A stretch of DNA of 64,000 nucleotides. Source: Cyclonatronum proteinivorum. GTDB lineage: Bacteria; Bacteroidota; Rhodothermia; Balneolales; Cyclonatronaceae. The DNA lies in assembly GCF_003353065.1 (NCBI RefSeq), contig NZ_CP027806.1, positions 434,001-498,000 of the forward strand, written 5' to 3'. Positions within the stretch are counted from its first letter, which is position 1. Each line of letters starts with the position of its first letter. Shown one piece after another: positions 45,303 to 52,656 of the stretch. The notes beneath the pieces are model-generated. The model did not search any database. It was not told the DNA's origin and saw only the letters and a list, made by a program, of their open reading frames with translations. Position numbers and translations under genes: made by a program.

Positions 45303-45974
45303 TCAAAAAGGTTTGTTGGAGTGTGTGAAGTACTCCTGATCATTTTTGGAAAACAAACTGAGCACGCCGAGACTCACTAAGTCAATAAGAATACGGGAAG
45401 ATTTGTACTTGCTCCGGTTAATCAGCCTGGCATATTCATCAACGGTGATTTTCTGATATTCGTTGAGATAGCGAAACAGGCGCTGTTCATTCTCACCAAA
45501 CTCAAAGGTGATTCCCCGGTCCCGGTTCTGACTGCGCAGCAGGGCCGCGCGCTCCTTGCTTGCCCGCACGCTTTTGTCTTTATCGCGGATATAGACCTCA
45601 CTTTTCCCGTTGTGCTTTACGTAAACCGGCTTTTTTTCGGCTTCCTCCACTTTCACAATCACAATCTCACGATCCCCCATCTCAAGCAGTTCTATTTTAT
45701 AGTCAAGCGGCGGATCACAAAGCACGGTAAGGGCTTCAATCAGCTGATAGCCTTCCTCATAATAGCTGTCAACCCCAATCAGCGTGCGGTTATCATCAAC
45801 GCCAATCAGCAGGGTGCCCCCTTTGGTGTTGGCAAAAGCACAAACTTCGCGGGCAATTTTTTCGGGGGATGAGATGGTTCGCTTAAACTCCAGAAAGGTA
45901 CCTTCACCCGTTTTAATGAAACGTTTCAGGTCGCCGAGCGACATGGTGCTGATGGCGGGCGGAATTCTAAACAT
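45303..45974 (-). CDS. AlbA_2 (Schlafen-like) domain protein
   Basis: The 223-residue protein has the AlbA_2 domain: GEGTFLEFKRT (23-33), VCAFANTKGGTLLIGVDDNR (44-63) and a VYIRDKDKSVRAS segment. The C-terminus (150-223) looks like a winged helix (LFRYLNEYQKITVDEYARLINRSKYKSSRILIDLVSLGVLS). Such proteins are usually annotated as putative DNA-binding or transcription regulators; some Schlafen-like ones are nucleases. It has no clear partner here. Confidence 0.83.
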   Translation of the reverse strand: MFRIPPAISTMSLGDLKRFIKTGEGTFLEFKRTISSPEKIAREVCAFANTKGGTLLIGVDDNRTLIGVDSYYEEGYQLIEALTVLCDPPLDYKIELLEMGDREIVIVKVEEAEKKPVYVKHNGKSEVYIRDKDKSVRASKERAALLRSQNRDRGITFEFGENEQRLFRYLNEYQKITVDEYARLINRSKYKSSRILIDLVSLGVLSLFSKNDQEYFTHSNKPF

Positions 45975-48392: not shown

Positions 48393-51300
48393 ATGCCTGA
48401 AAATGATTCCAAGCCCCTGTCCCGGCCTGATCCGGTAGCGTACGACATTCCTGAGACGCATTTAAGTGCCTTTTTTGACGAAGCCTTGCGTGATAGCTTA
48501 CATCGCTTTCACGGCAAACTAACGGCACCTTTTCAGGAAGTACTTCGGTCAGCGCGGCAGCAGCAGCTCCGTGTTCGGGGAGACGAAGCTGAACGGAAAC
48601 GTCTCATCCGGGTTGTGCTCGAAGGCCTGTTCGAAAGTCTGTCAGAAGTCGCATCCAGCGAGCTGATTGCGAAGGCCGCTGCACTGTGGCAGGAAGAAGT
48701 CGAACCGGCAGTTGAAGCGCTCCCCGAACAGCTTGTTTGTGTGCAGGGCGATGAACGCTTTCAGGCGACAACAGGCGACTCAGCCTATATCCGCTCAGCC
48801 AAAGCCATAAAACGTGTTGCTTACGCCACAGCTAAACAGTTTTGGACCTTCCGCAACCAGAAAACCGAACCGGTACCGGACTACCACTTTCACCAATCGG
48901 TTCCGCTCCGCCGGATTGGGCGGTACGTGCTGCTCGCGCAAGAAACCGTTTTTCGGGATACGGTTGCCTTTGCCTGCTGTGAATTAACCCGCATATTTGC
49001 TACGCTCCTGCTTGACGAACAGCATGTCGACGAATCGGAATCCTCCCAAAGTAAAGGCAATACACCGGCGTCCGCGGTTAGGGAAGCGGAAACGGCGTCT
49101 GCACAAAATGAAGGGGATAAAGCAGCCCCGCCGAAGACCGACAGTACTTCGTCTTCATCAAAAAAAGATTTTGCCTTTTTCCTGAAAATGCCGGCTGCAG
49201 CACAGGCGGAGCGCATCACCGCTGCGCTGAACCGGCTGGAAGCATTATGTGGCCTGACTACCGAAAATCACCCTGTGCTGCGCGCTTTGCCCGATAAAGC
49301 CATCGGTCTTGCTCGAAAGGCGGGCACGATTGAGCTTCCGGAGAGCCGTTTTGGTTCGCACCGGGTACAGCAGCAGCGTGCCGCCGCCGCAAAAGCTGCG
49401 GCGGCCAATTCTGCAAAATGGCAGCTGTGTTTTGCTACCGTAATCGCTGATTACGGGGTTCAGCTCAGTCTTTCCGGGCTTGAAAAGGAGATGAATCAGC
49501 TTGGGGAAAAGCTGCGTGAGCTTACGCATGCCTTTTTTCGGGACAACTGCTATGTGCCGGCGGAAAAGAGCATCAGCCTGTTGCGTGCGCAGCGCGAATT
49601 GCTGGACGAGGAGTTGAGCAGACCAAAGCTCAAAAGCCGCATTGAGCAGGTGCAGCTTGAGGCCAAAGAGGCTTTCGAAAGCGGCATCCCTCAGGAAGCG
49701 GCACAGCATGAAGTGCTGGAAAAACTGACCGGACAAATCCGGCAGCTCATCACGGAGGCGAGTTTGTATGTGCAGCGTTTTGGGGAGGAACTTGTACTCG
49801 CGGAGTCCCGCAGCCTGCGTTTTCCGGAGCCGCTGATCAAAACCGACCGCCTGAAATGGCGGGCTCTTTCCACCCGCTTTTTGCAAAGCAAGGCTTTTCG
49901 TCCGCTCGATCCCGCGGCGCAGCAGCTCGGCCCCTTTCTGGATAAACAGCGGCTTGCTATGGAGGAGGCTGCCGGTATTGCGGAAACCAATCTGCAGGCA
50001 GCGGTTTATGCCATCACTGAAAAAGGGGAGGCCGATCCCGCGGAAATCGCGCAAACCGGGCTGCAGCGTGCCATTAACGCGCTTGAAAGCAGCATTGTGG
50101 CCATTCGCGAAAAGCAGGACAGCTACGAACAGCTCGTAAAAAAGGGGAGCTCGTCGGTCCTCAGGCGTTTGGAGCAGCTCATGCGCGATCGCGACTACAG
50201 TGCGCTGGAGCTGCAGGACAAGGCCATTCTTGTGCAGGAAGGCGCCCTGAACTGGCAGGAACGCGCACAGCGGTTTGCCGCACGTGCCGGTGATACATTC
50301 GCGATCGCTTTTCGCTATGCGCGCATGAAGTTTGCCGGGTACTACGCTCCCGTTGCCCGTTTTCTCGGATTTGAGCCGGTCCATGCGGAAAGTGCCCGGG
50401 AGCGGCTGAATCTTACGGAATACCTGATCCGAAATAAGTCGAATGATGAAAAGCTTCCCTTTATTTATCAGCGGCTGTTTCGCCGGTCGCTGCTGATTGA
50501 GCAGCGCTTTTACCTTGATGCGCCGGGTAATATCGGGCACCTGGTAACGGGGTACGAACAGTGGCGCAAAGGCATCCCCTGGAGCATGGCTGTTGTGGGG
50601 CAAAAGGGGAGCGGGAAAAGCACCCTCATTCATTTTTTTAAGCAGTCGGAGCGGCTTAAAACACAGGTTGTCCATATCGACTTGTCGGAAACGATATACG
50701 AACCGGGTCCCATGCTGCGGCTCATTTCACGGGCCGCCGGCTTTTCGGAAACCGATTCCCTCGGTGAACTCGTCGCTAAATTTGAGCGCAGCAGCATCCG
50801 GCGGGTGATTGTTTTTGAGGGGGTTCAAAACCTGTATCTGCGCAATATCAACGGCTATGGTGCCATCAGTCAGTTTTGGGAACTGCTTTCCCTGACCTCC
50901 TCACAAGTGTTTTGGGTGGCAGCCTGCAGCCGGGATGCATGGTTCTTTTTTAGCCGCATGTTTAGTGCGGAGCAGTTTTTTTCGCAAGTGCTGCATGTTG
51001 ACCGTCTTTCGGGCAGGGACATTCAGCAGGGAATCATGCTCAGGCACCGGGCTACAGGTTTTGACGCAGCTTTTTTACCCTCGCCTGAAATCACCAAATC
51101 CCGCGCGTATCGCAAACTGCTGGGCGATAAAAAAGCCCTTCAGCAGTACCTTCAGGATCAGTATTTCGAAAGTCTGGCGGAAATGGCCGACGGCAATTTT
51201 AGCGTAGCCATGATTTTCTGGGTGAATTCCATTTCCAAAGCGGATGCAAGTACCATCACCCTTTCCCCTATAGAAGTTGCCGACATTGATGCGCTGGAGT

Positions 51301-51530
51301 CGCCATCGCGGGAGGTGCAGTTTACGCTTGCGGCGCTCATCCGGCATGATGTGCTTACCCCGGAACAGCTGGCGCTAGCCCTGCATCAGCCGCTATCCGG
51401 GGCCCGCCTGATGCTCGGGCGCCTCGCTGCCAAAGGCCTCGTAGTTAAGGTAAGTCAGGGCTACACCATCAATCACCTTGTGTACCGGCAGGTGACCCGC
51501 CTGCTGGCCGGAAAAAACATCCTTCATTAA
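48393..51530 (+). CDS. Giant P-loop NTPase of unknown function, paired with MscS channel
   Basis: I do not recognise this 1045-residue protein as a named family. Residues 1-720 are largely helical, with coiled-coil stretches (~370-470 and ~540-610) and a Ser/Glu-rich spacer (~210-265). A P-loop NTPase module starts near 715: Walker A GQKGSGKST (736-744) and a hydrophobic strand VIVFEGVQNLYL (805-816) at the Walker B position. Aligned to the DEAQN form of ORC/ExeA-type ATPases, the first acidic residue is Glu809 and the catalytic Glu is replaced by Gly810, so hydrolysis may be slow or absent. A winged-helix domain ends the protein (~975-1045). No signal peptide or membrane helix. Its stop is 7 bp before the MscS gene, strongly suggesting joint function. 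Confidence 0.85.
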   Translation: MPENDSKPLSRPDPVAYDIPETHLSAFFDEALRDSLHRFHGKLTAPFQEVLRSARQQQLRVRGDEAERKRLIRVVLEGLFESLSEVASSELIAKAAALWQEEVEPAVEALPEQLVCVQGDERFQATTGDSAYIRSAKAIKRVAYATAKQFWTFRNQKTEPVPDYHFHQSVPLRRIGRYVLLAQETVFRDTVAFACCELTRIFATLLLDEQHVDESESSQSKGNTPASAVREAETASAQNEGDKAAPPKTDSTSSSSKKDFAFFLKMPAAAQAERITAALNRLEALCGLTTENHPVLRALPDKAIGLARKAGTIELPESRFGSHRVQQQRAAAAKAAAANSAKWQLCFATVIADYGVQLSLSGLEKEMNQLGEKLRELTHAFFRDNCYVPAEKSISLLRAQRELLDEELSRPKLKSRIEQVQLEAKEAFESGIPQEAAQHEVLEKLTGQIRQLITEASLYVQRFGEELVLAESRSLRFPEPLIKTDRLKWRALSTRFLQSKAFRPLDPAAQQLGPFLDKQRLAMEEAAGIAETNLQAAVYAITEKGEADPAEIAQTGLQRAINALESSIVAIREKQDSYEQLVKKGSSSVLRRLEQLMRDRDYSALELQDKAILVQEGALNWQERAQRFAARAGDTFAIAFRYARMKFAGYYAPVARFLGFEPVHAESARERLNLTEYLIRNKSNDEKLPFIYQRLFRRSLLIEQRFYLDAPGNIGHLVTGYEQWRKGIPWSMAVVGQKGSGKSTLIHFFKQSERLKTQVVHIDLSETIYEPGPMLRLISRAAGFSETDSLGELVAKFERSSIRRVIVFEGVQNLYLRNINGYGAISQFWELLSLTSSQVFWVAACSRDAWFFFSRMFSAEQFFSQVLHVDRLSGRDIQQGIMLRHRATGFDAAFLPSPEITKSRAYRKLLGDKKALQQYLQDQYFESLAEMADGNFSVAMIFWVNSISKADASTITLSPIEVADIDALESPSREVQFTLAALIRHDVLTPEQLALALHQPLSGARLMLGRLAAKGLVVKVSQGYTINHLVYRQVTRLLAGKNILH

Positions 51531-51537
51531 GTTTCCT

Positions 51538-52656
51538 ATGAAAACTTTTATTCCTGCCGGTCTACTGATTAGGATGCTGCTGACGCTGACGCTGTTTTTC
51601 ACAGCAGATTTCATAGCAGGGCCGGTTGCTGCTCAGCAAGCCTCTCTGCAAACAGCTGTTCAGCCGGAGGAGCCCCCGGCAGCACAAATTGAGTTTGAAG
51701 CTGATCTTCAGCCCGTATTGCCAGACACCCTGGTAATTATTGAGGCGCAGACAGATGCAGATGCGGATGAGCGTGATGAAGCACCGGTTGAGGAAGCGCT
51801 GGAAGAAGAGGTGAGTCAGCTCAGAAACCTGGTGTCTTTCCCCAAAATTTTGTTTTCCGTGCTGCTGCTGGTCGGGGCATGGTTCGTAAACGGCTTCCTG
51901 ATCCGCATCCTGGATAACCTCGCCGAGCGTGCAACCAATTACCGGTTGTTTATCAAGCGGCTCACCCCGGTTACGCGCATCGCGATCTGGACTTTTGCCA
52001 TTTACATTGTAATTGCCGGGGTCATCAGTCCGCCCTTCGAGACCGTGATTGCGCTCACGGCTTCCTTTGGTATTGCGGTGGGCTTTGCCTCGCAGGATAT
52101 TCTGCGAAACATTTTCGGAGGCATTATGATCATCCTTGACCGCCCGTTTCAGGTCGGGGATAAAATTCAGGTAGGGGAACACTACGGGGAGGTGAAGAGC
52201 ATCGGCCTGCGAAGCTGTCTGATTGAGACCCCGGACGATAACACCGTAGCCATTCCCAACGGTGAACTGATGAACCGCGCAGTATCAAACGCCAACTCAA
52301 GCGCACTCGACTGTCAGGTTGTGGCCGAAATTTTCATACCGGCAACTGCGGATGTGATGCTCGCCAAAGATGTTGCCCGTCGGGCCGTGTTTTCATCCCC
52401 CTATTTATACATGAATAAGCCGGTTGCTGTAATTGCCCTGAATGAGCTCAACAACCGGGGCTTGTTCATTAAGCTTCGGGTGAAGGCCTACGTGCTCGAC
52501 ATCCGCTACGAGTTCCTGTTTAAAAGCGATATGACCGAAATGATCGTGACCGAGCTGAACCGGCTCGGGATATTATCTTCCGCGGCTCCGGAATCGCAGC
52601 CTTCTCCCGGAAACAGCCGCGGTGACAATCCGGTGAAAAGTCAGGAAATGGCGTAA
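51538..52656 (+). CDS. MscS-family mechanosensitive channel
   Basis: The 372-residue protein has a signal peptide (1-32), an acidic periplasmic segment (40-95), then three membrane helices: 103-125, 145-163 and the pore helix 169-200 (FGIAVGFASQDILRNIFGG, the MscS hallmark). DRPFQVGDKIQVGEHYGEV (201-219) opens the cytosolic beta domain. Such channels release solutes on sudden hypo-osmotic stress. It is in an operon with the giant NTPase, an unusual partner for a channel. Confidence 0.92.
   Translation: MKTFIPAGLLIRMLLTLTLFFTADFIAGPVAAQQASLQTAVQPEEPPAAQIEFEADLQPVLPDTLVIIEAQTDADADERDEAPVEEALEEEVSQLRNLVSFPKILFSVLLLVGAWFVNGFLIRILDNLAERATNYRLFIKRLTPVTRIAIWTFAIYIVIAGVISPPFETVIALTASFGIAVGFASQDILRNIFGGIMIILDRPFQVGDKIQVGEHYGEVKSIGLRSCLIETPDDNTVAIPNGELMNRAVSNANSSALDCQVVAEIFIPATADVMLAKDVARRAVFSSPYLYMNKPVAVIALNELNNRGLFIKLRVKAYVLDIRYEFLFKSDMTEMIVTELNRLGILSSAAPESQPSPGNSRGDNPVKSQEMA

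Follow-up and report, generated by a model that had tools for sequence, protein, structure and literature searches.

The 64,000-nucleotide stretch of DNA analysed here (hereafter the window), covering positions 434,001 to 498,000 of the forward strand of contig NZ_CP027806.1 from Cyclonatronum proteinivorum, whose genome is a single contig of 4.29 Mb, encodes a large nucleoside triphosphatase (NTPase) and, directly after it, a channel of the MscS family. A preliminary description of this gene pair, made from the sequence alone, had reported a soluble protein of 1045 residues encoded 7 bp before an MscS-type channel, and both the open reading frames and the match of the channel to PF00924 (E=4e-20) agree with it. 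As detailed below, the observation made in that description is confirmed and its interpretation partly supported.

Conservation of the gene pair

Searches of the relatives and of the phylum yielded 79 non-redundant loci with profile E < 1e-40. The MscS gene is the immediate same-strand neighbour of the NTPase gene in all 75 loci with a readable partner side (four others are cut off by contig edges), and likewise in each of 20 further loci retrieved by an order-level search as a check set for the adjacency rule. Counting adjacency in homologues thus failed to refute the pairing. The channel gene lies downstream of the NTPase gene in 62 loci and upstream in 13, the reversed order occurring in other Rhodothermia-type families, and the remaining neighbours differ between families; in the Balneolales they are syntenic housekeeping genes (uridine-kinase-like, RecQ-like and SDR genes). 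Apparent cases of an NTPase lacking the channel (L108, L110, L111 and L115) were rejected as gene-calling artefacts, the channel being found by a six-frame search. No fusion of the NTPase and MscS genes was found among the loci, the long frames in L111 and L115 overlapping MscS in another frame. One Balneola-like clade has lost the N-terminal ~600 residues and kept the AAA+ domain, the winged helix and the MscS gene, which points to the AAA+-winged-helix module as the part tied to the channel.

In the reverse test, which covered 98 relatives, a partner-type MscS was present in 52 genomes, 51 of which also carry the NTPase; in the exception (G026) the NTPase is a fragment that runs into the edge of one contig, and another contig starts with the MscS gene. 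Other MscS genes in these relatives score at most 139 bits against at least 329 for the partner type, leaving aside the second half of the gene in G005 (121 bits). In this genome, the closest relative, the MscS gene is split into two open reading frames by an apparent frameshift (L031:11460-12553). The 139-bit sequence is a broken remnant (L188:3212-3598) in G039, a genome only 80% complete in which no NTPase was found; the remnant is of the partner type and may have arisen as the channel gene decayed once its partner was lost. At another locus, the pair is followed by two more MscS-type genes and one unrelated open reading frame (L101:2782-6917).

Fusion to ion transporters and matching of channel types

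The NTPase of the window has no N-terminal transporter domain. In other Bacteroidota families, the NTPase chain, ~1000 residues long, forms the C-terminal two thirds of Na_H_Exchanger proteins of ~1500 residues (L104, L192 and L202), and it also ends proteins of ~1700 residues that start with an AA_permease domain (L117, L119, L197 and L199), three of which carry SLC12 signatures. Profile comparison aligns the N-terminal helices of the stand-alone protein with the middle of the fused ones. All fused genes with a readable partner side adjoin an MscS gene, and genes for TrkH and TrkA adjoin the antiporter-type L104 and L108. A 414-residue protein without a Pfam match is encoded directly upstream of the antiporter-NTPase fusion in L104 (L104:11551-12792).

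The type of the channel follows the type of the NTPase. Scored against the partner profile, the MscS proteins beside stand-alone NTPases reach ~297 bits or more, most of them with a KAYVLD box; those beside antiporter fusions score 74-113 bits; and those beside SLC12-type fusions are short and score 23-36 bits. The partner channel of L108 is an outlier (30 bits), and that of L198, cut at a contig edge, scores 62 bits and falls among the antiporter fusions in the NTPase tree as well as in the MscS tree. The NTPase tree and the MscS tree both split off the fused groups with a support of 100/100; the MscS tree has long branches, so that its fine detail is unsafe, and the same grouping is seen in the raw scores. 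Where a genome carries two copies (G120, G471 and G537), each MscS stays with its own NTPase type. Without joint action of the two proteins, this correspondence would be hard to account for.

Domain organisation of the NTPase and the channel

The preliminary description had also read a long helical N-terminus and a C-terminal winged helix in the NTPase, and the AlphaFold2 model contains both: the long helices run to residue ~658, the P-loop alpha/beta domain spans ~730-868 and the winged helix ~973-1026. Hydropathy analysis of the NTPase gave no hydrophobic segment. The helical region modelled alone reached a pLDDT (predicted local distance difference test) of 83.7 and a pTM (predicted template modelling score) of 0.72, and matched no fold from the PDB or from viruses at E<=0.001. 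The best Foldseek matches of the NTPase model (E=5e-7) are Orc1/Cdc6-type AAA+ proteins, and Pfam AAA_22 matches at E=1e-4, under its curated cut-off.

Both nucleotide-binding motifs were found as first described. The Walker A motif satisfies the consensus GxxGxGK[ST]; among 80 homologues with a readable P-loop, its Lys is present in 57 and lost in 23, with Arg in 13. At the Walker B strand, position 809 is acidic in 77 of the 82 aligned homologues, and position 810, where a catalytic Glu would stand, is Gly in the window and Glu in none of the 82. The missing catalytic Glu is thus a trait of the whole family, and some members from the Rhodothermia are degenerate further. The alignment is consistent with the earlier suggestion of a degenerate and probably slow NTPase, and an NTPase without its catalytic Glu is likelier to be a switch than a motor.

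No known family could be assigned, and the second check that could have refuted the preliminary description thus failed to do so: the NTPase stayed below every curated cut-off of Pfam and NCBIfam, gave no PADLOC match below 0.02 and matched no PDB sequence. Four weak relatives of ~750-830 residues (L136, L182, L183 and L184) were set aside as a separate family without MscS; they are distant kin of the AAA+ module (E about 1e-17).

The channel consists of a signal-like N-terminus, an acidic segment, three transmembrane helices and the MscS beta domain, which scores 72 bits against a cut-off of 20.2. Two of the helices were located by hydropathy (97-126 and 142-160); the third (164-200), before the beta domain, was read from an alignment and matched to MscS structures.

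Table 1. Features of the NTPase-MscS gene pair (window coordinates).
Feature	Position	Strand	Basis or remark
NTPase partner gene, 1045 residues, ATG start, soluble protein	48393..51530	+	Open reading frame; no transmembrane segment; family profile E=2e-135
Helical N-terminal region, residues 1-660	48393..50372	+	Contains two beta hairpins, both small, and an insert of low complexity (~210-258)
AAA+ (Orc1/Cdc6-like) module, residues ~689-945	50457..51227	+	AlphaFold2 and Foldseek; weak AAA_22 match
Walker A GQKGSGKS, residues 736-743	50598..50621	+	Sequence and homologue alignment
Walker B VIVFEG, residues 805-810 (strand RVIVFEG)	50805..50822	+	Glu809 at the acid position; Gly810 at the catalytic-Glu position
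C-terminal winged helix, residues ~971-1026	51303..51470	+	AlphaFold2 model; MarR_2 E=0.011
Conserved C-terminal tail NHLVYRQV..LL..KNILH, reaching the stop codon	51471..51527	+	Homologue alignment
Intergenic gap, 7 nt between the NTPase and MscS genes	51531..51537	.	Open reading frame list
MscS-family channel gene, 372 residues, ATG start	51538..52656	+	Open reading frame; PF00924; hydropathy; alignment
MscS beta domain (PF00924), residues 187-253	52096..52296	+	Pfam E=4e-20
KAYVLD box, residues 316-321, characteristic of channels that partner a stand-alone NTPase	52483..52500	+	

Just 3' of the pair, the window carries a DDE-type transposase (PF13546/PF01609; 53341-54696); in the relatives included in the neighbourhood comparison, the pair had no such neighbour. 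A stand-alone protein of 223 residues with a Schlafen AlbA_2 domain, weakly matching PDC-S50 of PADLOC, is encoded amid biosynthesis genes at 45303-45974.

Occurrence on Pseudomonadota plasmids

Other phyla were sampled through plasmids only. The pair was found on three plasmids from the Pseudomonadota (Novosphingobium and Caulobacter), which extends its distribution to two bacterial phyla. Plasmid pLA3 of Novosphingobium pentaromativorans encodes a homologue of 1110 residues, annotated only as an AAA family ATPase, which matches the profile with 132 bits over the AAA+ domain and the winged helix and is followed after 2 nt by a mechanosensitive channel gene; the same pair is present in Novosphingobium sp. 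PP1Y. The Novosphingobium protein carries a signal-like N-terminus and several transmembrane segments before the AAA+ domain. On the Caulobacter plasmid (L187), two consecutive MscS genes follow the NTPase homologue. A search of 50,697 phage records gave no match to the NTPase.

Probable function and alternative explanations

A functional link between the NTPase and MscS is near certain, and an osmotic role of the system is likely. An MscS channel, TrkH/TrkA, a cation/H+ antiporter and an SLC12-like cotransporter have only ion and turgor homeostasis in common. The two genes therefore probably encode a channel and a regulator dedicated to each other, the regulator being an AAA+/STAND-like switch ATPase, and serve this homeostasis. 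Of the functions put forward in the preliminary description, osmotic or ion control is thus favoured by the transporter fusions, and a death-type or defence role is disfavoured by these same fusions, by the housekeeping surroundings and by the absence of a match in the phage records. Regulatory domains of transporters usually sit in the cytosolic tail, and MscS channels are the textbook case of gating by membrane tension alone. Occurrence of the NTPase chain both as a cytosolic transporter tail and beside a channel with a cytosolic vestibule suggests that the chain regulates flux directly.

The direct observations are the gene pair and its specificity, the transporter fusions, the fold and the absence of the catalytic Glu; from these we infer physical contact between the proteins, a direction of control, a signal and gating by nucleotide, as follows. 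The helical region, or the attached transporter, would report the osmotic or ionic state, and the AAA+-winged-helix module would change state with the bound nucleotide. The conserved C-terminal tail or the winged helix may touch the cognate channel, so that the module would act at the cytoplasmic side of MscS and set when opening is allowed. In the sister forms, the same chain would serve as the regulatory tail of a CPA-type antiporter or an SLC12-like cotransporter, or it comes with a signal peptide and transmembrane helices. Most likely, the module would thereby match the uptake or exchange of cations to their release through MscS, turgor being corrected without simultaneous uptake and leak. 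A more far-reaching reading, which we put forward tentatively as somewhat short of an even chance, is that of an unnamed, widespread osmotic-control machine in which the switch ATPase forms a physical link between cation transporters and MscS and the channel is not gated by tension alone. If true, this would place an unrecognised layer of control on MscS and tie ion uptake directly to emergency release. The preliminary description knew of no named system with this pair, and no description or precedent of the NTPase-MscS partnership was found in full-text searches of open-licence papers; the parts themselves are of known kinds.

Several points weigh against the reading of the pair as a channel with its own regulator. 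The system is absent from 46 of the 98 relatives and is thus not essential to the group, and its co-occurrence within one order partly reflects linkage and shared ancestry, because adjacent genes are inherited together; a Fisher test of the co-occurrence is accordingly given no weight. Loss of the P-loop Lys in the 23 homologues mentioned above indicates that nucleotide binding may not be universal, and DNA binding by the winged helix is still conceivable. The N-terminus of L108, which gave no Pfam match, is a putative antiporter judging by its length, transmembrane pattern and middle-region homology.

The winged helix is also the starting point for a rival proposal, that of an Orc/MalT-like transcription regulator which would bind DNA and control the adjoining mscS gene according to osmolarity. 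The Orc/Cdc6-type winged helix, its MarR_2-like signal and the tight gene pairing would suit such a regulator; we nevertheless consider it unlikely, as the same module is found on the cytosolic side of transporters with 10-12 transmembrane segments and in the membrane-anchored Novosphingobium form, the winged helix carries just a slight excess of basic residues (9 K/R vs 5 D/E), the conserved tail extends to the extreme C-terminus and the type-matched channel clades point to contact between proteins. A similarly low probability is given to an assembly or turnover factor, an AAA+ chain that inserts, folds or dismantles MscS and the fused transporters without gating them. Its AAA+ fold and specificity for channel type notwithstanding, a catalytic site without Glu and a P-loop Lys that is often lost would be unexpected in an ATP-driven remodeller, and covalent fusion to transporters better suits a standing regulator.

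Least probable are two further explanations. The chain could be a scaffold, a structural linker that holds transporter and MscS together and in which nucleotide binding is a relic; however, both Novosphingobium proteins and almost every Balneolales member examined retain an intact P-loop, and the helical part is dispensable in one Balneola-like clade, which makes such a scaffold improbable despite its long helical N-terminus and the loss of the P-loop Lys in many Rhodothermia members. In the death-type or anti-phage explanation, a STAND-like sensor NTPase would detect invasion and open MscS, depolarising or killing the cell. The STAND-like module (AAA_16/nSTAND matches) beside a channel, the patchy presence outside the Balneolales, the Caulobacter plasmid copy near type IV secretion genes and the weak PADLOC mad8 matches are compatible with it. 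The lack of any match among the phage records, the syntenic neighbours in the Balneolales, the fusion to ion transporters, a model without C-terminal sensor repeats and the lack of a PADLOC match below 0.02 for the NTPase of the window leave it little credibility. The loci lie amid housekeeping genes, and matches to defence models are few and weak.

Comparison with known systems

An association with CoCoNuT was considered and judged unrelated. Among defence components, the closest is the mad8 ATPase of MADS, the best PADLOC match, detected in seven of 28 members of the NTPase family (E down to 8e-7); the NTPase of the window is, however, unmatched, and other MADS genes were not seen in the neighbourhoods inspected. 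The Orc1/Cdc6-type AAA+ initiators (e.g. 7jgr, 2qby), which give the best Foldseek and weak profile matches, likewise combine an AAA+ core with a winged helix at the C-terminus. The NTPase differs from them in its low identity (10-15%), the missing catalytic Glu, a helical N-terminus of 660 residues and an unrelated genomic role, its gene being a neighbour or a fused part of genes for membrane transport; the genomic contexts inspected lend no support to a role as a replication initiator.

With the STAND/nSTAND proteins (Pfam AAA_16, nSTAND1, nSTAND3), the NTPase shares the plan of a P-loop switch NTPase with a winged helix. Sub-threshold matches to STAND-type profiles (AAA_16/nSTAND) occur in most members, and a GRxxEL box and a GNP motif are discernible in some; the GRExE-type box before the P-loop reads GRRDEL in L108 and GRKKEL in L117, and is degenerate in the window. 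Unlike the STAND NTPases, it has no TPR, WD40 or LRR sensor repeats, ends in the winged helix and tail, and is partnered by an MscS channel or an ion transporter.

KefB and KefC are cation/H+ antiporters in which a cytosolic regulatory C-terminal domain controls ion flux, and the antiporter-type fused forms resemble them as cation/H+ antiporters with a cytosolic tail; the tail of the fused forms is, however, a helical-AAA+-winged-helix chain, and is followed by an MscS gene. The partner channel itself is predicted to be a true MscS-fold channel like MscS, MscK, MscM and YnaI, of which MscK is the known ion-regulated case. It differs from these in falling below the NCBIfam cut-offs for the named subfamilies, in its KAYVLD box and in the NTPase that always adjoins it.

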